Source of the DNA: Thiotrichales bacterium
GTDB taxonomy: Bacteria; Pseudomonadota; Gammaproteobacteria; HK1
DNA: 64,000 nt
Assembly: GCA_026709935.1 (NCBI GenBank)
Contig: JAPOSC010000040.1
Span: forward strand, 1-64,000
Direction: 5' to 3'
A program made the position numbers and the translations under genes. A model generated the notes under the pieces. That model saw only the letters and a list, made by a program, of their open reading frames with translations. It made no database searches and was not told the origin of the DNA. Positions 3,066 to 61,942 of this stretch are shown here, piece by piece (positions within the stretch are counted from its first letter, which is position 1; every line of letters starts with the position of its first letter).

Positions 3066-3989
3066 TCAGCCTCGGGTGGTGCGGTGCCGCAGCAGCTCCG
3101 CGCCATACGCCGGCGGTGCATCGGGGGGCCGCGTCTTGAAGCGCCGGTGCACCCACAGGTACTGCTCGGGGCTGCGCTCGATCTGCCTCTCCAGCACTGC
3201 GTTCAGCCGTGTCGCATCCGCCACGTCATCGCCGCTCGGAAAGTCTTGGAGCGCAGGACCAATCACCACTTCCCAGCCTGATTCGTCCGCCAGCCGGTAC
3301 GATGCGAACGGAACCACCCGGGCGCCGCTCGTGCGGGCGAGCCATGCGGTGGCGGTCGTGGCCACCGAGCGCTCGGCGAAGAACGGCACGAACACGTTGC
3401 GGCGACCGCGCCGGCTCGAGAAGTCCTGATCCGGCGCGTACCACAGGATGCGGTTTGCGGCCAGGTGCCGGATCATGGCCCTCGCGTCCTTGTGCGGCAC
3501 CAGCGCCGCGAGATGGCGCCCGCGGCCGGCACGCAGGAGCGCATCCCACCCCGGGTCGTTGTGTGGCCGGTACGTCGCGCCGCACTCGAATCGCGAGGCG
3601 AGAATCCGACCGCTCAACTCGAAGGTCGTGAAATGGCCACCGAGGAGAATCACGCCCCGTCCGCAAGCCAGCGCCGCCTCCAGATGCTCGGCGCCCACGA
3701 TGCGCGAGCGCGCCATGATTCGCGGCTCGCTGCCCCACCAGGCAAGCGCCGTCTCGACGATCCCGAGGCCCAGAGCGTGGAAGTGGCGACGTACAAGGCG
3801 GGCGCGCGCCGCATCGCCAAGGTGGGGAAAGCAGAGCGCGAGATTCGTCTCCGCGATGCGGCGCCGGCGCCGCATCAGGCAGTGCATCAGACCGCCGGCC
3901 GTACCGCCGATCCTGCGCTGGATGCCCCACGGCATCCGTGCGACGCCGCGCATGGCGGAGAGGAAGCATGCCGAAAGGACGCGGCCCAT
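3066..3989 (-). CDS. lpxL: Lipid A biosynthesis lauroyl acyltransferase (LpxL/HtrB family)
   Basis: A 307-residue LpxL/LpxM-type acyltransferase that adds a secondary acyl chain to Kdo2-lipid IVA at the inner membrane. The catalytic HX4E motif is present in GGHFTTFEL near residue 120, and the downstream YRPHNDP and APDQDFS segments match the family. The N-terminus (LSACFLSAMRGVARMPW) is weakly hydrophobic, as expected for the single membrane anchor. ATG 3989 gives the normal family length. It is the first gene of the minus-strand envelope operon; the 217 bases between it and mnmE presumably hold its promoter. LpxL and LpxM cannot be firmly separated by sequence alone. Confidence 0.85.
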   Translation of the reverse strand: MGRVLSACFLSAMRGVARMPWGIQRRIGGTAGGLMHCLMRRRRRIAETNLALCFPHLGDAARARLVRRHFHALGLGIVETALAWWGSEPRIMARSRIVGAEHLEAALACGRGVILLGGHFTTFELSGRILASRFECGATYRPHNDPGWDALLRAGRGRHLAALVPHKDARAMIRHLAANRILWYAPDQDFSSRRGRRNVFVPFFAERSVATTATAWLARTSGARVVPFASYRLADESGWEVVIGPALQDFPSGDDVADATRLNAVLERQIERSPEQYLWVHRRFKTRPPDAPPAYGAELLRHRTTRG

Positions 3990-52035: not shown

Positions 52036-52269
52036 GTAAATGTCCGGTGTTTCACGGCGGTGGTCCAGCGAGTACAGTACACCCCAAGGCTGCGGAGGGT
52101 TCCCCACCCGTGGAAGGGTTGTGCATTCGCGGCCTTCCGGGGGGAGCATGAGGCCCTTTCGGGAACGGTGTTTTCACGCATCGGCTTCGATTCCGGGGAG
52201 TCTCATATCAGATCTGCGCTTCAGGCACTCTCCGGGCTTGACTCATTCAACAGAGGGAGAAACACGATC

Positions 52270-53376
52270 ATGTTCAAGCCAACCCGGTGGTCGGCAGGGC
52301 TTGCGGGCCTTGCCGCCACGGCAATGATTGCCTCCTCGGCGGCCCTCGCCGAGACGAAGATTCGCGTTCAGTCGGTCATTCCGTCCAAGGCCGACGAAGT
52401 ACACATGCTCAACGAATTCGCCAAGGATGTGCACGATCTGACCAATGGTGAAGTCGTCATCGAAGTGCTGCCCGCTGGTGCGGTGGTCGGGGTCAAGGAG
52501 ACCCTGGATGCGGTCGACGCCGGGCTCGTCGAAGGCGGTTTCGCCTGGACCCACTACTGGTCCGGCAAGCATCCGGCGGCGATGCTGTTCGGCTCGCCGG
52601 TCGCCGGCGCCGGGGTCGGCATCGACAACATCGCCTTCATGTCGTGGTTCCTGTACGGCGGCGGCAAGGAGCTCTACGACCGGCTCTGGGACGAGATGGG
52701 CGTCAACGTCAAGGGCTTCATGCTGCAGCCGGTGGGGCCGGAGGCGCTCGGCTGGTTCAAGGAGCCGATCAACTCCATGGACGACTTCCGCGAGTACCGC
52801 TTTCGCGCCCCGCCCGGCATTCCCGGCCAGACCTACAACGACATCGGGGTGGCCGCGGTGGCCATGGGTGGCGGCGACATCCTGCCGGCGCTCGAGAAGG
52901 GCACCATCGATGCGGCCGAGTGGTGCTGCCCGAAGCCCGACAGCGTGTTCGGCTTCCAGAAGGTGCTGAAGCATTACTACCTCCAGGGCCTGCATCAAGT
53001 GGTCGTCAACGCGGACATCTACATCAACGGCGATGTCTACAACGCGCTCACCGATCATCAGAAGAAGGCGCTCGAAGTGGCGGCGAACGCATCGCTCACG
53101 AAGGCCCTGGCCTACCGCATCTACGAGAACGGCAAGGCGCTGAAGGATCTGACCGAGAACCACGGGGTGCAGCTCCACGACACGCCCTCCGACTACTTCA
53201 GCGAGTACATGAACGCGGCCCGGGCGTCGTTGGAGAAGAACGCGGCGGAGAATGCATTCTTCAAGGAAGTGTGGGATTCGCAGCGGGCCTTCGCCGAGAT
53301 CGCGGTGCCGTTCTGGGCCGGCGCGCAGACCTCGAACGCCAGTCTGGGTCAGGCGTTCGCCAAGTCGTTGCAGTAA
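52270..53376 (+). CDS. dctP: TRAP transporter substrate-binding protein DctP
   Basis: The 368-residue periplasmic protein has a signal peptide (WSAGLAGLAATAMIASSAALAE) and the DctP fold, with YRFRAPPGIPGQTYNDIG carrying the carboxylate-binding Arg and DAAEWCCPKPDSVFGFQKVLKHYY, a pattern seen in the TakP-like (2-oxoacid) group. Ligands are usually carboxylates. ATG 52270 is preceded by GAGGGAGA. The last codons form the first unit of a 13-base tandem array. Confidence 0.93.
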   Translation: MFKPTRWSAGLAGLAATAMIASSAALAETKIRVQSVIPSKADEVHMLNEFAKDVHDLTNGEVVIEVLPAGAVVGVKETLDAVDAGLVEGGFAWTHYWSGKHPAAMLFGSPVAGAGVGIDNIAFMSWFLYGGGKELYDRLWDEMGVNVKGFMLQPVGPEALGWFKEPINSMDDFREYRFRAPPGIPGQTYNDIGVAAVAMGGGDILPALEKGTIDAAEWCCPKPDSVFGFQKVLKHYYLQGLHQVVVNADIYINGDVYNALTDHQKKALEVAANASLTKALAYRIYENGKALKDLTENHGVQLHDTPSDYFSEYMNAARASLEKNAAENAFFKEVWDSQRAFAEIAVPFWAGAQTSNASLGQAFAKSLQ

Positions 53377-53507: not shown

Positions 53508-53635
53508 GATGACCGGCCCGATTCCGCGTCCGATGCAGACTCCGGCCGGTGGTCCGACGAACGGGATGTTCGTGCCGTCGGTCGGGCCTCGCCGCCGCGG
53601 GCCTTTCCCGCCCGGCTACCGAGGGTAACGAAGCG

Positions 53636-54241
53636 ATGTCCGAACCACTCGAAGAGTTGGACATCACCGACGAGCTGATCGCCGAACGGCGGGGCGGCGA
53701 GCCGGGCGACCTGCCGGACGACATGACAGGCTGGATGCGCTCGACCATCACCTGGATCGACACCCTCAGCCTGTGGTGCGGACGCATCTTCTGCTGGCTT
53801 CTGGTCCCGCTGATGGTGGCGATGGTGTGGGAAGTGGTGGCCCGCAAGCTCTTCGTCGCCCCCACCTTGTGGGCCTACGACGTGAGCCGGATGCTGAGCG
53901 GCGGGCTGTTCATGGCCGGCGCCGGCTACGCCCTGATGCGCGGCGTCCACATCCGCGCCGATTTCATCTACCGGAACTGGGCGCCGCGCCGGCAGGCGCT
54001 CATCGACGCCATCCTGTACCTGTCCCTGTTCTTTCCCGCGATGATCTTCTTCTTTCTGATCTCCTTCGGCTACGCGGAGAAGGCATGGGTGCGCTGGGAG
54101 CTCAGCATGGACACCGCGTTCATGGCACCGGTCGCGCCGGTGCGTACGGCCATGCCGCTCGGCGCCGCCCTGCTGATCATCCAGGGGGTATCGGAGTTCC
54201 TGAAGTGCGTCTACGCGATGCAGAAGAACCGGTGGCCCTGA
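53636..54241 (+). CDS. dctQ: TRAP transporter small permease DctQ
   Basis: The 201-residue product has an acidic cytoplasmic start and four membrane helices: WCGRIFCWLLVPLMVAMVWEVVARKLF, MLSGGLFMAGAGYALMRGVHIRADF, LYLSLFFPAMIFFFLISFGY and PLGAALLIIQGVSEFL. The VHIRADF motif is typical of DctQ. ATG 53636 is chosen. It lies 1 base before dctM. Confidence 0.92.
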   Translation: MSEPLEELDITDELIAERRGGEPGDLPDDMTGWMRSTITWIDTLSLWCGRIFCWLLVPLMVAMVWEVVARKLFVAPTLWAYDVSRMLSGGLFMAGAGYALMRGVHIRADFIYRNWAPRRQALIDAILYLSLFFPAMIFFFLISFGYAEKAWVRWELSMDTAFMAPVAPVRTAMPLGAALLIIQGVSEFLKCVYAMQKNRWP

Positions 54242-54242
54242 C

Positions 54243-55790
54243 ATGAGCCCCGAAGCCATCGGCTTCATCATGATCGCGGTGATGCTGTTCGCGATCTTCG
54301 TCGGTTTCCCGATCTCCTTCACCCTCATCTTCCTGGGGCTCGTGTTCGGGGCCTGGGGATTCGGGCCGAAGCTCGTCGTCTACCTCATGACGCTGCAGTT
54401 CAACAACGTCATGCTGGAGCAGACGCTGGCGGCGGTGCCGCTGTTCATCTTCATGGGCATCCTCATGGAGCAGGCGGGGTTGATGGAACGGCTGTTCCGC
54501 TCCGTCCAGCTCATGCTTGCCCGCACCCGCGGCGCGCTCTATATCGCGGTGCTCTTCGTCTCCACCATCTTCGCGGCTGCCACCGGCATCGTCGGCGCCT
54601 CGGTGACGATCCTCGGCATCATGGCGGCCAAGACCATGAACCGCTCCGGCTACGACGTGAAGCTCGCGGCCGGCACCATCACCGCCGGCGGGACGCTGGG
54701 GATCCTGATCCCTCCGTCGATCATGCTGGTGGTCATGGGGCCGGTGCTGGAGGTGCCGGTCACCGATCTGTTCGCCGCCGCCATCGTGCCCGGCATCATG
54801 CTCGCCTGCCTCTATACCGCCTACGCGTTGATTCGCTGCGGGCTGAACCCTTCGCTCGGGCCGCCGCTACCGGAGGACGAGCGCCCGGAGACCTCCGGCA
54901 GCATGTGGCTGGAGTTCGTCGCGGCCATCGTGGTGCCGGTCGCACTCTTCGTCGCCGCGACTTTCGTCGTCCAACAGTTCGCGGCGGCATTGCTCGGGCA
55001 GGGGCTGCTTCACCGGCTGCTGGCCCTCGGGCTCTACCTCCTGGCGTACGCGGCCATCTTCCTTGCCCTGAGGCAGGCGCACCGCTGGCTCGAGACCCAC
55101 CGGCCGCTCGGGTTCTACGTGAGCGAGGTGTGGACCGAGTTCTACCTGGGCCTCGTGCCCCCGGCCCTGCTCGTCGGTTTCGCACTCGGCTCGATCCTGC
55201 TCGGTTGGGCGACCCCCACCGAGGGTGCGGCCTGCGGCGCGTTCGGCGCGCTGCTGCTGACCCTCGCGTACCGGAAGATGACCCCCTCGAAATTCCAGGA
55301 AGCGCTGATCAAGACCCTGGAAATCTCGGTGTTGATCCTGTTCCTGGTCGCCGCGTCCAACTTCTTCGGCGCGGTGTTCTCGCGACTCGGCACGCCGACG
55401 ATGCTGACCAACGCCCTGCTGTCGTTCGAGCTGTCCCAGATCGAAGTGCTGATCATCGTCATGGTGCTGATCTTCCTTCTGGGCTGGCCGCTGGAGTGGG
55501 TCCCCATCGTCCTCATCATCGTCCCCATCCTGATCCCGCTGCTGGACAAGATGGAGATCAACCTGACCTGGTTCGGCATCCTGGTGGCGGTCAACCTCCA
55601 GACCGCCTGGCTCTCGCCCCCCGTGGCCCTCTCGGCCTACTTCCTCAAGGGCGTGGTGCCGGAATGGGATCTGAAGGACATCTACCTGGGCATGATGCAA
55701 TTCATGGTGATCCAGTTGATTGGTCTGATCCTGATCATGTTGTTCCCGCAGATCGTCCTCTGGTTGCCGGGCTACATCTACGGGCCGTAG
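54243..55790 (+). CDS. dctM: TRAP transporter large permease DctM
   Basis: The 515-residue permease carries the ion-coupled transport channel. Family segments include FMGILMEQAGLMERLF, GASVTILGIMAAKTM, GGTLGILIPPSIMLVVMG, ATPTEGAACGAFGALLL and PLEWVPIVLIIVPIL. It is about 80 residues longer than common DctM proteins because of an additional segment at residues about 215-300 with two or three helices, as seen in a subset of large DctM proteins. It precedes the HisA-like fusion gene by 16 bases. Confidence 0.92.
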   Translation: MSPEAIGFIMIAVMLFAIFVGFPISFTLIFLGLVFGAWGFGPKLVVYLMTLQFNNVMLEQTLAAVPLFIFMGILMEQAGLMERLFRSVQLMLARTRGALYIAVLFVSTIFAAATGIVGASVTILGIMAAKTMNRSGYDVKLAAGTITAGGTLGILIPPSIMLVVMGPVLEVPVTDLFAAAIVPGIMLACLYTAYALIRCGLNPSLGPPLPEDERPETSGSMWLEFVAAIVVPVALFVAATFVVQQFAAALLGQGLLHRLLALGLYLLAYAAIFLALRQAHRWLETHRPLGFYVSEVWTEFYLGLVPPALLVGFALGSILLGWATPTEGAACGAFGALLLTLAYRKMTPSKFQEALIKTLEISVLILFLVAASNFFGAVFSRLGTPTMLTNALLSFELSQIEVLIIVMVLIFLLGWPLEWVPIVLIIVPILIPLLDKMEINLTWFGILVAVNLQTAWLSPPVALSAYFLKGVVPEWDLKDIYLGMMQFMVIQLIGLILIMLFPQIVLWLPGYIYGP

Positions 55791-55806: not shown

Positions 55807-57027
55807 ATGCTGGTCTTTCCCGAAATCCAGATTTCCGGCGGCAAGGTGGTCACGCGAATCTCGCCCGCGGCCGAGAACATCGTCCATCCGATCACGCCGG
55901 ACGAGGCCGTCCGCAAATTCGAGGCGCAGGGCGCTGAACGGCTGCATCTCATCGACGTGGACGCCGCGCTTGGCCGGGAAACCACGAACCACGATCTCAT
56001 CGCCGGGCTCATCGCTTCGACGCAAATCCCGGTGCAGATCGCGGGCGGCATGCGCACGCTGCACCACATCGAGTCGTGGTTCGACGCGGGCGCGGCCCAC
56101 GTGGTGCTGGGCACACTTGCCATCACCAACCAGCAGTTGCTGGCCGAAGCCTGCGCCCGGTTTCCGGGCGCGATCCTCGCCAACGTCGCGACCAGAGACG
56201 GCTACGTGATGATCGATGGCTGGCGGACGCAGACCGCGTTCCGGCCGCAGGACATCGTCTACGACCTCCAGATGTCGGGGGTCGCGGGCATCATCCACTT
56301 CGACATTGATCGGTTGGAGGGGGATGCTTCGACCTCGCTCGCGCTGACGATGGAGATGAACCAGGACGTGGTCATCCCCGTGTACTCCAGCGGTACCGTG
56401 CACAGCATCGAGGACATGGCCCGGCTGCGCTACCTGCCGAACATCCACGGCGTCATCATCGGCGAGGCGCTGATCCACGAACGGTTCAGCCTGCAGGAAG
56501 CACTCCAGGTGGCGGCGCAGAGGGAGACCAGCCCTCAGCCGGAGGTAGAGACCGCGGTCGACGTGCGCGGCATCCAGCATCCGCGCAAGGTCTATCTCGC
56601 CTCCTACAGCCTCTCGCCGACGGTGCGATGGTGGAACCAGGATCTGCGCCAGGCCGTCACCGACGACAATCCCTACATCGAGATGGTGATCCCGCAGGAA
56701 GATCTGGATATCGATCCCGCCACGCTCACGCCGCGCGCGCTTCAGGCGGCGTACGAGAAGGTGGTGGACGATGCGGACGCGGTCGTGGTCGTGCTCGACG
56801 GCATCGATTACCAGGCATGGACCGGGTTCGAGTGCGGGTACGCCCGCGCGCGCGGCAAGTACCTGCTGGGCATCGCCACCGACGCCCCGAACGAGGCGCG
56901 CACGCCCTTCGAGGCGATGTGCGACGACGTCATCGTCATCGATCCGCAAGAAGATCGTCAGATCGTCTTCGCGTCGATCGCGAAGCAGATGAACGCGCAC
57001 CTGCTGGTGGACCGCGACGGGAGCTGA
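55807..57027 (+). CDS. HisA-like barrel fused to nucleoside deoxyribosyltransferase-like domain
   Basis: The 406-residue product has two parts. Residues 1-250 follow HisA: GGKVVTR, GAERLHLIDVDAALGR, PVQIAGGMRTLHHIESWFDAGAAHVVLGT, IHFDIDRLEG and GVIIGEALI. The residues that align with the two catalytic Asp of HisA appear to be Gln (FPEIQI) and Val (ILANVAT), so isomerase activity is unlikely. Residues 275-406 resemble nucleoside 2-deoxyribosyltransferases: KVYLASYSLSP, DADAVVVVLDGIDYQ and TGFECGYARARGKYLLGI, with the nucleophile Glu retained. It is within a TRAP operon. The fusion and its role are unknown to me. Confidence 0.75.
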   Translation: MLVFPEIQISGGKVVTRISPAAENIVHPITPDEAVRKFEAQGAERLHLIDVDAALGRETTNHDLIAGLIASTQIPVQIAGGMRTLHHIESWFDAGAAHVVLGTLAITNQQLLAEACARFPGAILANVATRDGYVMIDGWRTQTAFRPQDIVYDLQMSGVAGIIHFDIDRLEGDASTSLALTMEMNQDVVIPVYSSGTVHSIEDMARLRYLPNIHGVIIGEALIHERFSLQEALQVAAQRETSPQPEVETAVDVRGIQHPRKVYLASYSLSPTVRWWNQDLRQAVTDDNPYIEMVIPQEDLDIDPATLTPRALQAAYEKVVDDADAVVVVLDGIDYQAWTGFECGYARARGKYLLGIATDAPNEARTPFEAMCDDVIVIDPQEDRQIVFASIAKQMNAHLLVDRDGS

Positions 57028-57069
57028 GCCCTGGTGGGGCGGGAGCCCCGCCCCCGCCGCGAGACGGTC

Positions 57070-57741
57070 ATGGAACTGAACGAAGTCATGCGGACCACCT
57101 TTGCGGCCCGTCGGTTTACTGGCGAGCCGTTGTCGGATGGGGTGCTCCACGAGATTCTGGAACACGCCCGCTTTGCCCCGAGTGGCGGCAACCGCCAGGG
57201 TAACCGGGTCATCGTGGTCCGGGACCCCGACACTCGCACCGCGCTTGCGAAGCTCGCGCAGCCCGCCGCGAAGCGGTACGCGGCCCAGAAGGCGGCGGGG
57301 GAGAATCCATGGAACTCGATCATGCCGAGCGCGCTGCCCGCCTCGGTGTTCGAGCAGACTCCGCCGCCGCCCCTGCGGACGCACCCGTTCCGGACCGCGG
57401 ACGTGGTGCTGGTATTCGTGGTGGACCTGAAGGTAGTGGCCTCGACCGACCAGTACCTCGATCGGGTCGGGGTCATCAGCGGCGCTTCGATCTACCCGTT
57501 CGTGTGGAACGTCCTGCTCGGCGCCCGTCAGGCCGGATTCGGCGGCACCATCACCACCATCGCGGTGGCCCGGGAGCCGGAGGTGCAGGCCCTGCTCGGC
57601 ATTCCGGAGGAGTATGCAGTGGCGGCCCTCGTGCCCCTCGGTCGGCCGGTGGAGCAGCTCACGAAGCTGCGCCGACGTCGGGTGGAGGAGATCGCGACCC
57701 GCGAGCGCTTCGACGGCGAGCCGTTCGATGTCGAGGACTGA
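57070..57741 (+). CDS. Nitroreductase family FMN protein
   Basis: A 223-residue FMN-dependent reductase. The start MELNEVMRTTFAARRFTGEPL has the phosphate-binding arginine group, FAPSGGNRQGNRVIVVRD is the FMN loop, and the C-terminal half contains GASIYPFVWNVLLGARQAGFGGTITT, the dimer-interface FMN region. Members reduce nitro groups, quinones or iodotyrosine, or dehydrogenate. ATG 57070 is chosen over 57034. It lies 43 bases after the fusion gene and 4 bases before the ThDP gene, so an operon is likely. Confidence 0.87.
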   Translation: MELNEVMRTTFAARRFTGEPLSDGVLHEILEHARFAPSGGNRQGNRVIVVRDPDTRTALAKLAQPAAKRYAAQKAAGENPWNSIMPSALPASVFEQTPPPPLRTHPFRTADVVLVFVVDLKVVASTDQYLDRVGVISGASIYPFVWNVLLGARQAGFGGTITTIAVAREPEVQALLGIPEEYAVAALVPLGRPVEQLTKLRRRRVEEIATRERFDGEPFDVED

Positions 57742-57745
57742 TGCG

Positions 57746-59470
57746 ATGAACGGCGCCGAACTGCTCGTCGATACCCTGGTGCAAGCCGGGGTGCGGCGCA
57801 TCTTCAGTCTGTCCGGCAACCAGATCATGCCGGTCTACGATGCCTGCATCGATGCCCGCATCTCCATCGTGCATGTGCGGCACGAGAGCGCGGCGGTGCA
57901 CATGGCCGACGCCTGGGCGCAGATCACCGGCGAGATCGGCGTCGCGTTGGTGACGGCCGGGCCGGGGTTCGGCAACGCGCTCTCGGCGCTCTTCTCCGCC
58001 CGGCACTCGGAAAGCCCGGTTCTCCTGCTGAGTGGGGATTCCCCGGTGAGCGCCGACGGAAACGGCGCGTTCCAGGAGTTGGCGCAAGTCGATATCGCGC
58101 GCCCCCTCGTCAAGATCTCCCGGCGGCCCGGGCGTGTCGAGCGGCTCGGGCATGACACCGCCGCCACCATCGCCTGCGCGCGCTCGGGACGGCCGGGGCC
58201 CGCGCACGTGGCGTTGCCGTTCGACGTGCTCGGTTCAAAGGCCGACGATGCGTCCCGGATCGGGACGGCGGCCCTCGGTCGTCGCCCGCGGGCGCTCGCG
58301 CCGCCGAGGGCCGAGGCCATCGTTCACCGGGTCATGCGAGCGAAGCGCCCCGTCGTCCTCACCGGCCCGAGCATGAACCGGAGCCGGAACGGTGCTCGGG
58401 TGACGGCGCTCGAAACCGCTCTCGGGGCTCCGGTGGTCCCGATGGAGAGCCCGCGGGGGCTGCGCGATCCGGCGCTCGGCACGTTCTCCGACGCGCTCGC
58501 GGCCGCGGATCTGGTGGTACTGCTCGGCAAGGCGGTCGATTTCACGATGGGGTTCGCGCGGCCGCCGGCCATGAATGCTGGGGCCGAGCTGGTGGTTGTC
58601 GACCCCGATGAGGCCATGATCGATCGCGCCCGGCGACTCGCCGGCGATCGGGTCGCGATATCCGCGTGCGCGGACCCGGATCTGGCGGCGGACGCGATGG
58701 TCGCGGCGGCGTTCGGAGAGACGGCCGGGGCATCGGGAGCATCCAAGGAGGCCGGTGGGGTACTGGGAGCGTCCGCGGTATTGTCCGGGGAGACCGCAGG
58801 AATGCCGGGAGGGTCCGCCGCATCGCACCGTGCCTGGCGCGACGAGGTCGCTGGCGCCATCGGCAACCGCGCGGTGGTTGCCGATGCCGATGTCCGGTTC
58901 CATCCCCGCGCCGTCTGCACCGCGGTGCAGCGCGTTCTGGATGCGGCATCGGACCCCGTCCTCGTCTGCGACGGCGGCGAGTTCGGGCAGTGGTCGCAGG
59001 CGTTGTGCACTGCTCCCGTGCGCATCATCAACGGCCTGTCCGGAGCCATCGGCGGCGGGCTGTGCCATGCGCTTGCCGCGAAACTCGCGCGGCCCGAGGC
59101 GACCGTCGTCGCGATGATGGGAGACGGCACCGCCGGATTCCACTTCACCGAGCTCGACACTGCGGTGCGCGAAGAAGCGGCGTTCGTGACCGTCATCGGC
59201 AACGATTTCCGCTGGAACGCGGAGCATCAGATCCAGCTTCGCGAATACGGTCCCGATCGCCTCATCGGCTGCAATCTCGCGCCGAGCGCCCGCTACGACC
59301 TCGCCGCCGCCGGGTTGGGCGGTCATGGCGAGCACGTCACGGAGCCGGCCGACCTCGATGCGGCACTCGCCCGGGCGCTCGCGAGCGGTCGCCCCGCGTG
59401 CGTGAACGCGGAGATCGACGGTGTCGCAGCGCCCGCGTTCCGGGGGAAGGCCGCCCAGGGCAGTCATTGA
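57746..59470 (+). CDS. Thiamine diphosphate-dependent enzyme, acetolactate synthase-like
   Basis: The 574-residue protein has the three-domain layout of the POX/ALS family: an N-terminal PYR domain with the catalytic Glu in HVRHESAAVHMADAWAQ, a middle DHS-like domain (RPVVLTGPSMNRS onward) and a C-terminal PP domain with the ThDP/Mg motif MMGDGTAGFHFTELDTAVREE...NDF. An Ala/Gly-rich stretch at about residues 321-362 is unlike the family and may be a linker expansion. It could be a decarboxylase, lyase or carboligase. It is the last gene of the TRAP operon. Confidence 0.85.
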   Translation: MNGAELLVDTLVQAGVRRIFSLSGNQIMPVYDACIDARISIVHVRHESAAVHMADAWAQITGEIGVALVTAGPGFGNALSALFSARHSESPVLLLSGDSPVSADGNGAFQELAQVDIARPLVKISRRPGRVERLGHDTAATIACARSGRPGPAHVALPFDVLGSKADDASRIGTAALGRRPRALAPPRAEAIVHRVMRAKRPVVLTGPSMNRSRNGARVTALETALGAPVVPMESPRGLRDPALGTFSDALAAADLVVLLGKAVDFTMGFARPPAMNAGAELVVVDPDEAMIDRARRLAGDRVAISACADPDLAADAMVAAAFGETAGASGASKEAGGVLGASAVLSGETAGMPGGSAASHRAWRDEVAGAIGNRAVVADADVRFHPRAVCTAVQRVLDAASDPVLVCDGGEFGQWSQALCTAPVRIINGLSGAIGGGLCHALAAKLARPEATVVAMMGDGTAGFHFTELDTAVREEAAFVTVIGNDFRWNAEHQIQLREYGPDRLIGCNLAPSARYDLAAAGLGGHGEHVTEPADLDAALARALASGRPACVNAEIDGVAAPAFRGKAAQGSH

Positions 59471-60058: not shown

Positions 60059-61942
60059 GTGTCGGTGACCATCGGCGCCCGGGCGCCGTCGAGGCTCGGT
60101 CTCGGCGCGATGCTGGACTTCGACGTGAGCGTCGCTCTGGGCGATGCCCGTCTGTCGCCCGGAGAGATTGAATCGCTGCTCGACGGCGAGGGCGGGCTGG
60201 TGCTGCTCAAGGGCCAGTGGGTCGAAGTCGACCGCGAGAAGCTGCGCCAGGCCATCGAGCACTGGGACGCGCTGCAACGGCAGGCCGAAGACGGCGAGAT
60301 CTCGTTCGTCGAAGGGATGCGTCTGCTCGCCGGCGCATCGGCGGATCTCCGGCACGAGGAACAGGCGGACGACGAACGCCACTGGGTGCACGTGACGCCC
60401 GGTGACGCCATGCGCGAGATCCTCGCCGGCCTGCGCCAGCCGGACGCCCGGGACGCGGTGAAGATCGACGAAGCGCTGAAGGGCGCGCTACGGCCGTATC
60501 AGCACCAGGGACTGAGCTGGCTGCGCTTGCTGACGGGGCTGGGCCTCGGTGCCTGCCTCGCCGACGACATGGGTCTGGGGAAGACCATTCAGGTGCTGGC
60601 GTTGCTGCTGTGCGAGCGGCGCGGCGGCATCCGCCAGCCGGGATCGCCGTCTCTGCTGGTGGTTCCGGCGTCGTTGCTCGGGAACTGGCGCAGCGAAGCG
60701 GCGCGATTCGCACCCTCGCTGAAGCTGCGCTTCCTGCACCCGTCCGAGACCGATCGGCAGAGCCTGGCGGACATTGCGGCCGCGCCCGGGACGGAGCTCG
60801 CCGGCACCGATCTGGTCGTCACCACGTACGCCATGCTGGTGCGGCAGACCTGGCTGGTGGAGATGTCCTGGCGGCTTGTGATCCTGGACGAGGCTCAGGC
60901 CATCAAGAATCCGGCGACGCGGCAGAGTCGGGCGGTCAGAAAGCTCCCGGCCGATGCCCGCATCGCCCTGACCGGCACCCCGGTGGAGAATCGTCTGGCC
61001 GATCTGTGGTCGCTGTTCGACTTCCTCAATCCCGGACTGCTCGGATCGCGCAAAGTGTTCCAGTCCTTCGTCGACAGCCTGGAGGCGCGCGAGGAGAACC
61101 CCTATGCGCCCCTGCGGCGGCTTGTCGGCCCGTACATCCTGCGCCGGCTCAAGACCGACCGTGCGATTATCGACGACCTGCCGGAAAAGATGGAGACGGC
61201 CTGCTACTGCTCCCTGACCCGGGCCCAGGTCAAGCTCTACGGGCAGGTCGTGCGGACCATGCAGCGGGAGCTGGAGTCCGTCGTCGACCTCGCCCGGCGG
61301 GGCGTGGTGCTGCGCTCGCTCCTGCGCTTGAAGCAGGTGTGCAATCATCCCAGCCAGCTTCTCGGCGACGGCGAGTACACCCCCGCCGACAGCGGCAAGT
61401 TCCTTCGTCTCGCGGACATCTGCGAGGAGCTTGCCGAACGCCAGGAGAAGGTGCTGATCTTCACTCAGTTCCGCGAGATCATCGATCCGCTGGCGGAGCA
61501 CCTGACCGCGGTGTTCGGGCGGTCCGGGCTGGTGCTGCACGGTACGACCGGTGTCCGGCAGCGCCGCGTCCTGGTCGATCGATTTCAAAGTGACGACGGA
61601 CCGCCGTTCTTCATCCTGTCGCTGAGGGCGGGCGGCACCGGTCTGAATCTGATCGCCGCATCACATGTCATCCACTTCGACCGCTGGTGGAATCCGGCGG
61701 TCGAGAATCAGGCCACCGACCGCGCCTTTCGCATCGGCCAGCGCCGCAACGTGCTGGTGCACAAGTTCATGACCACGGGCACGGTCGAAGAGCGTATCGC
61801 CGTGATGATCGCCGAGAAACAGAAGCTGGCCGACGATATCCTTGCCGGCGACGGCGAAGTCAATCTCACGGAGCTGTCCGACGAGGCACTGATGGATCTT
61901 GTCCGTCTCGACGTGACCCGTGCGGCGCTGATGAGGACCTGA
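60059..61942 (+). CDS. SNF2 family DNA helicase, N-terminally truncated
   Basis: The 627-residue frame starts with GTG. It has a partial SNF2-associated N-terminal region (LGLGAMLDFDVSVALGD, GLVLLKGQWVEVDREKL), then a complete ATPase core: Walker A DDMGLGKTIQVLALLL, DEAQ box LDEAQAIKN, LTGTPVENRL, and the second RecA lobe with RAGGTGLNLIAASHVIHFDRWWNPAVENQATDRAFRIGQ. Full-length relatives have about 900-1100 residues; upstream sequence carries only a short out-of-frame piece. It is followed within 5 bases by the SWIM gene, the usual partner. Confidence 0.85.
   Translation: MSVTIGARAPSRLGLGAMLDFDVSVALGDARLSPGEIESLLDGEGGLVLLKGQWVEVDREKLRQAIEHWDALQRQAEDGEISFVEGMRLLAGASADLRHEEQADDERHWVHVTPGDAMREILAGLRQPDARDAVKIDEALKGALRPYQHQGLSWLRLLTGLGLGACLADDMGLGKTIQVLALLLCERRGGIRQPGSPSLLVVPASLLGNWRSEAARFAPSLKLRFLHPSETDRQSLADIAAAPGTELAGTDLVVTTYAMLVRQTWLVEMSWRLVILDEAQAIKNPATRQSRAVRKLPADARIALTGTPVENRLADLWSLFDFLNPGLLGSRKVFQSFVDSLEAREENPYAPLRRLVGPYILRRLKTDRAIIDDLPEKMETACYCSLTRAQVKLYGQVVRTMQRELESVVDLARRGVVLRSLLRLKQVCNHPSQLLGDGEYTPADSGKFLRLADICEELAERQEKVLIFTQFREIIDPLAEHLTAVFGRSGLVLHGTTGVRQRRVLVDRFQSDDGPPFFILSLRAGGTGLNLIAASHVIHFDRWWNPAVENQATDRAFRIGQRRNVLVHKFMTTGTVEERIAVMIAEKQKLADDILAGDGEVNLTELSDEALMDLVRLDVTRAALMRT

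Follow-up and report, generated by a model that had tools for sequence, protein, structure and literature searches.

What becomes of a HisA-type barrel once it is joined to a domain related to the nucleoside deoxyribosyltransferases (NDTs) is the question raised by a gene in a 64 000-nucleotide stretch of DNA from a Thiotrichales bacterium (contig JAPOSC010000040.1; hereafter the window). HisA is a textbook barrel whose chemistry is defined by two Asp residues; the catalytic roles of these residues are established for the family, and accord with the variants D7N, D7N/D176A and D11N named in the titles of PDB entries. A first-pass annotation, made by eye from the sequence alone, had reported that both residues were replaced in the fusion protein, and had proposed that the barrel had acquired a new role. 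The features discussed below are collected in Table 1.

Table 1. Features of the fusion gene and of the genes around it (positions refer to the window)
Feature	Position	Strand	Basis or remark
TRAP solute-binding protein DctP	52060..53376	+	Coordinates of the longest ORF, with the actual start probably further downstream; 2hzk is the nearest match in the PDB
TRAP DctQ	53549..54241	+	Pfam
TRAP DctM	54243..55790	+	Stops 16 bases before the fusion start
Fusion gene, 406 aa	55807..57027	+	ORF and translation, Pfam, 26 further orthologues of the same architecture
HisA-type (beta-alpha)8 barrel, residues 1-240	55807..56526	+	PF00977, model alignment, residue table
Barrel codons	Glu6 55822, Gln8 55828, Ala128 56188, His164 56296, Thr197 56395	+	
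Linker, residues about 241-258	56527..56580	+	pLDDT <50 at 241-257
NDT-type domain, residues 259-406	56581..57024	+	PF05014, hhalign, PDB sequence matches
NDT-domain codons	Tyr263 56593, Tyr316 56752, Glu342 56830	+	
Nitroreductase-family flavoenzyme	57034..57741	+	Pfam
Thiamine-diphosphate enzyme, acetolactate synthase / 2-hydroxyacyl-CoA lyase group	57740..59470	+	Conserved in L004-L006

The gene is a single frame of 406 codons with an ATG start and a GGAG motif shortly 5' of it. Both of the domains recognized by eye in this frame were recovered by profile searches with scores above the curated Pfam cut-offs and far above chance, PF00977 on residues 3-226 (152.3 bits, E 1.9e-44) and the transferase-related PF05014 on residues 262-362 (34.2 bits, E 3e-8, against a cut-off of 28.8). 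An AlphaFold2 model built from 47 sequences has a mean pLDDT of 81, with a disordered linker, an earlier model from six sequences (pLDDT 66) having been too poor. The barrel fold is predicted with confidence: the modelled barrel superposes on PriA/HisA structures (4x9s/3zs4) with Z about 32 and an rmsd of 1.9 over 233 residues, and a fold search with the whole model gave only barrels among the matches listed. There is next to no likelihood that the frame is a sequencing or assembly artefact joining two separate genes. The copies in two metagenome-assembled genomes (MAGs), G688 and G693, do seem to be split by frameshifts, but separate assemblies yielded 26 other sequences with this single-frame architecture and a linker of conserved length, and on the evidence of these orthologues an artefactual fusion was rejected.

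The 26 further fused sequences recovered in our survey of genomes are complete or near-complete, have 43-84% identity, and come from two gammaproteobacterial genera and a third lineage of that class. Three species near the window genome have the same architecture at 82-84% identity; in the second genus the C-terminal domain occurs in 24 of 31 genomes, and identities with the window protein are about 46-53%; and the third lineage is represented by one genome with a fused orthologue at 43% identity. With the window protein these sequences form an alignment of 27, in which one row lacks the first 36 residues. In broad samples the fusion is rare, being present in 2 of the 273 other genomes sampled from the class and in none of 397 other genomes sampled across the phylum. 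The two split MAG copies (L092, 11712-12940; contig C61 of G688, 3413-3861) consist of overlapping frames, the break falling at a different place in the NDT half of each, and these splits are probably sequencing frameshifts. Both halves are under purifying selection, pairwise dN/dS being mostly 0.03-0.3; the closest pair (L004/L006) gives 0.44 in the NDT half, a value that rests on very few changes. In a phylogenetic tree that includes 29 HisA sequences, the fused barrels group as a single clade (100/99) outside them, and their single origin is well supported. The clade sits on a long stem of 2.0 changes per column that carries a long-branch warning, and because of this we are unsure of the exact point within HisA from which it arose. 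Two other PF00977 genes, which adjoin on another contig of the window genome, read as normal HisA and HisF, so the fusion barrel is a third paralogue; a separate normal HisA was present in all three genomes checked, and no other PF05014 match was found in the window genome. We also considered a phage, plasmid or defence gene and rejected it: there was no full-length match in the plasmid search, no phage record matched with the C-terminal half, and neither the viral contigs nor PHROG or PADLOC gave any match to the fusion.

The similarity of the barrel to HisA and PriA extends over the whole (beta-alpha)8 fold, at about 25-35% identity, and includes Trp139, yet the residues that define HisA catalysis have been lost. 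The position of the base Asp8, at the end of strand 1 and Asp in all 16 HisA proteins compared, is Gln8 in the window protein, just as had been read by eye, and among the 26 aligned sequences that cover it (one row does not) it is Gln in 24, Glu in one and His in one. The general-acid Asp of strand 5, also found in 16/16 HisA proteins, is replaced by Ala128 (Ala in 21 of the 27 fused sequences and elsewhere Val, Ser or Thr, with a single Asp). Here the first-pass annotation was right that no Asp remains but wrong about the residue, which it took to be Val127; alignment of GLDARDG with NVATRDG unambiguously places Ala128 opposite the Asp. That the two aligned Asp residues might prove conserved after all is excluded, the first being absent from 26/26 covering sequences and the second from 26/27. 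The window protein keeps, as Asp166, a third carboxylate of HisA (Asp168 in the normal HisA of this genome), where most orthologues carry Gly, Ala or Asn. The first loop, VRLxQG in HisA, has been lost. Judged from its sequence, the barrel is unable to use the HisA catalytic dyad.

The glycine-rich phosphate-binding segments had been described as kept. The segments are real, and the N-terminal site (Gly80, Gly81, Arg83, Gly102 and Thr103, in the motifs AGGMRT and LGTLA) is intact and nearly invariant in the 27 orthologues, but the C-terminal site is altered, SGG having become SGT in 27/27 and GRA having become GEA or SHA. The retained fold and N-terminal phosphate site might be taken to mean that the protein continues to act as a ProFAR isomerase, whether HisA or HisA/TrpF, with its substitutions tolerated; position 79, Gly in HisA and Ala or Ser in the fusion family, also differs in HisA/PriA intermediates (PMC4462073). 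Nevertheless, we regard this as very improbable, given that both catalytic Asp residues and the VRLxQG loop are gone, that the TIGR00007 equivalog score of 154.3 bits lies below the cut-off of 228.95, and that a normal HisA is encoded in the same genome. The fusion protein is almost certainly not HisA, and by the defining features tested that name should not be applied to it.

In place of the HisA residues, a different set has become fixed: Glu6 (25/26), Gln8 (24/26), His164 (27/27) and Thr197 (27/27), together with Thr16, Trp91-Phe92, Gln142-Thr143, Tyr193 and Asn212. Since a decaying domain would not be expected to fix such a set of residues, the barrel looks retooled rather than decayed, with a changed function. 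The new role proposed for it at first sight is likely, because the dyad is unusable while one phosphate site is kept and new polar residues are invariant. One form that this role might take is that of a new enzyme in series with the NDT half, which would pass its released sugar phosphate or base on to Glu6, Gln8 and His164 for a new reaction. The fixation of these residues and of Thr197, all differing from HisA, is in line with such a reading. In HisA the residues equivalent to 8, 128 and 166 point into the barrel; positions 6, 126 and 164, each two residues earlier in the strand concerned, would be expected by strand alternation to face the same way. We consider a catalytic barrel of this kind quite unlikely. 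A broader version, in which new barrel chemistry involving Glu6, Gln8 and His164 acts on a phosphorylated ribosyl compound and is coupled to an altered N-glycosidase, would amount to an undescribed two-step reaction in a lineage-restricted family; this we consider unlikely too, if a shade less so.

The NDT half was compared with members of the NDT family. Alignment by hhalign to five stand-alone gammaproteobacterial NDT-family proteins gave 97% probability, the profile of this half matches the PDB sequences 7o62, 7m5h and 1f8x, and PF05014 was matched in 18/18 orthologues scanned, with E 0.1 or better. With CtNDT and the Lactobacillus leichmannii enzyme (LlNDT; 1f8x) it shares the YLA start, the PQxDL segment, the Glu of GFECGYA and the adjacent Tyr. 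In CtNDT the nucleophile E88 has Y7 beside it; D62 lies close to the anomeric carbon, and D82 is the Asp close to the 5'-OH (PMC10913048). The counterparts of E88 and Y7 are Glu342 and Tyr263, both invariant (27/27), which bears out the earlier statement that the nucleophile is kept. The remaining residues differ. Gap-free alignment to 7o62 and 7m5h, and the spacing of 26 residues before the Glu, put Tyr316 (27/27) at the position of CtNDT D62 and LlNDT D72, whereas 1f8x can alternatively be aligned with a gap of three residues, which points to position 319 (Val in the window protein and Glu in 22 orthologues); neither position is acidic in the window protein. It is most likely that the catalytic Asp has been replaced by Tyr316. 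The position of the Asp contacting the 5'-OH (D82 in CtNDT, otherwise D92) corresponds to residue 336, which is variable, being Gln in the window protein and Glu in 22 of 27. Unlike NDT, the fusion protein also has an invariant Trp338 inside the nucleophile motif, and a barrel attached.

Two other families offer partial parallels. In YtoQ (TIGR03646) the nucleophile is surrounded by a similar W-x-x-x-F-[ED]-x-G-Y-A-x-A-x-G-K-like pattern, but the fusion protein scores 14.3 bits against a cut-off of 155.35, and YtoQ has no barrel. The superfamily chemistry of nucleotide N-glycosidases of the DNPH1/Rcl type, with their Tyr-Asp-Glu triad, provides the model for the mechanism that we propose (PMC10603095); compared by described chemistry, these enzymes differ in that the triad Asp is not seen in the fusion. 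The D62N variant of CtNDT keeps about 50% of its catalytic efficiency (PMC10913048), so that changes of this kind lower but do not remove the likelihood of activity; for DNPH1, by contrast, proton donation is ascribed to the Asp (PMC10603095). Because the active site of the NDT half has itself been altered, its activity is less certain than the first-pass annotation assumed, and this half meets the definition of an NDT in part only. The fusion is a new arrangement of two known domain families with both active sites altered in a conserved way; no paper describing a HisA/NDT fusion was found in the open-licence literature searched.

Our working hypothesis, put forward tentatively as one that may well be wrong, is that the protein is a nucleotide or ribosyl-phosphate N-glycosidase or transferase whose barrel holds the ligand and does not isomerize it. 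The barrel would have descended from the HisA lineage and lost ProFAR isomerization together with both catalytic carboxylates, while gaining a new polar pocket formed by Glu6, Gln8, His164 and Thr197. It would grip a phosphorylated ribosyl group through the N-terminal phosphate site and Trp139, and Glu342, oriented by Tyr263, would attack the anomeric carbon of an N-glycoside, forming a (deoxy)ribosyl-enzyme ester that is then resolved by water or another acceptor. The class of ligand, the cleavage of a glycosidic bond and the cooperation of the two sites are what we infer here. The retained phosphate motifs, the invariance of Glu342 and Tyr263, purifying selection and the separate normal HisA support the hypothesis; the replacement of Asp by Tyr316 (or Val319) and of D82 by Gln336 and the inconsistent gene context count against it. 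The main rival, which we think rather unlikely, is a pseudoenzyme with two non-catalytic sites, in which the barrel senses a nucleotide or phosphoribosyl metabolite and the C-terminal domain regulates. Replacement of the barrel Asp residues, the most likely replacement of the NDT Asp and purifying selection would all suit such a sensor, as would a gene that in one genus stands alone, outside any metabolic operon, but the invariance of Glu342 and Tyr263 would be unexpected were catalysis gone.

The glycosidase or transferase hypothesis receives no consistent guidance from gene neighbourhood. In four species of the window genus (the window and L004-L006) the genes DctP-DctQ-DctM are followed at close spacing by the fusion; the DctP gene is conserved in L004-L006, and 2hzk, the structure most similar to its product, was deposited as SmoM. 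The TRAP genes also occur without the fusion, in the congener G657 and in other genera; two of these genomes have an aminotransferase-like gene after DctM, and one has a gene resembling histidinol dehydrogenase (both named by eye). The fusion of the second genus stands alone, without TRAP genes and downstream of mnmA-hflD-like genes (by eye). We therefore rejected a function drawn from the TRAP operon: the link has no explanatory force because TRAP genes and fusion each occur without the other, and with a context that differs between lineages no pathway is fixed by it. A link to the kynurenine pathway was likewise rejected: the window, L004 and L005 have a kynureninase gene upstream, but none was detected in the L006 stretch examined.

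Several other features of these loci were noted. Several genera of the family have conserved TRAP genes (L134-L137), and it is the gene after DctM that changes, between the fusion, an aminotransferase class III-like gene and a histidinol-dehydrogenase-like gene. Two unrelated flavoenzymes share one operon position, after the fusion and before the thiamine-diphosphate enzyme: the nitroreductase in the window and, in L004 (11397-12341), a luciferase-like flavin monooxygenase (named by eye), to which an ORF of equal size and placement corresponds in L005 and in L006. The thiamine-diphosphate enzyme itself contains a low-complexity Ala/Gly/Ser-rich insert between its middle and C-terminal domains (window 58712-58819), and its counterpart in L004 (12451-14325) has a long Ala/Glu/Thr/Val repeat at the corresponding place. 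At 14 loci of the second genus (L073-L088) a low-molecular-weight phosphatase-like gene (by eye) is divergent from the fusion, starting in most of them roughly 50-100 bases upstream of it. An unrelated SNF2-type helicase gene with an N-terminal DUF3670 lies downstream in the window (60059-61942).

The family is small, and automatic annotation is likely to call its members HisA. What it offers is a natural, selected descendant of HisA that has lost both Asp residues, kept its grip on phosphate and acquired a new conserved polar set; its fusion partner, a domain of glycosidase type, has exchanged a catalytic residue as well. The fusion is a defined and testable case of the re-purposing of a barrel.
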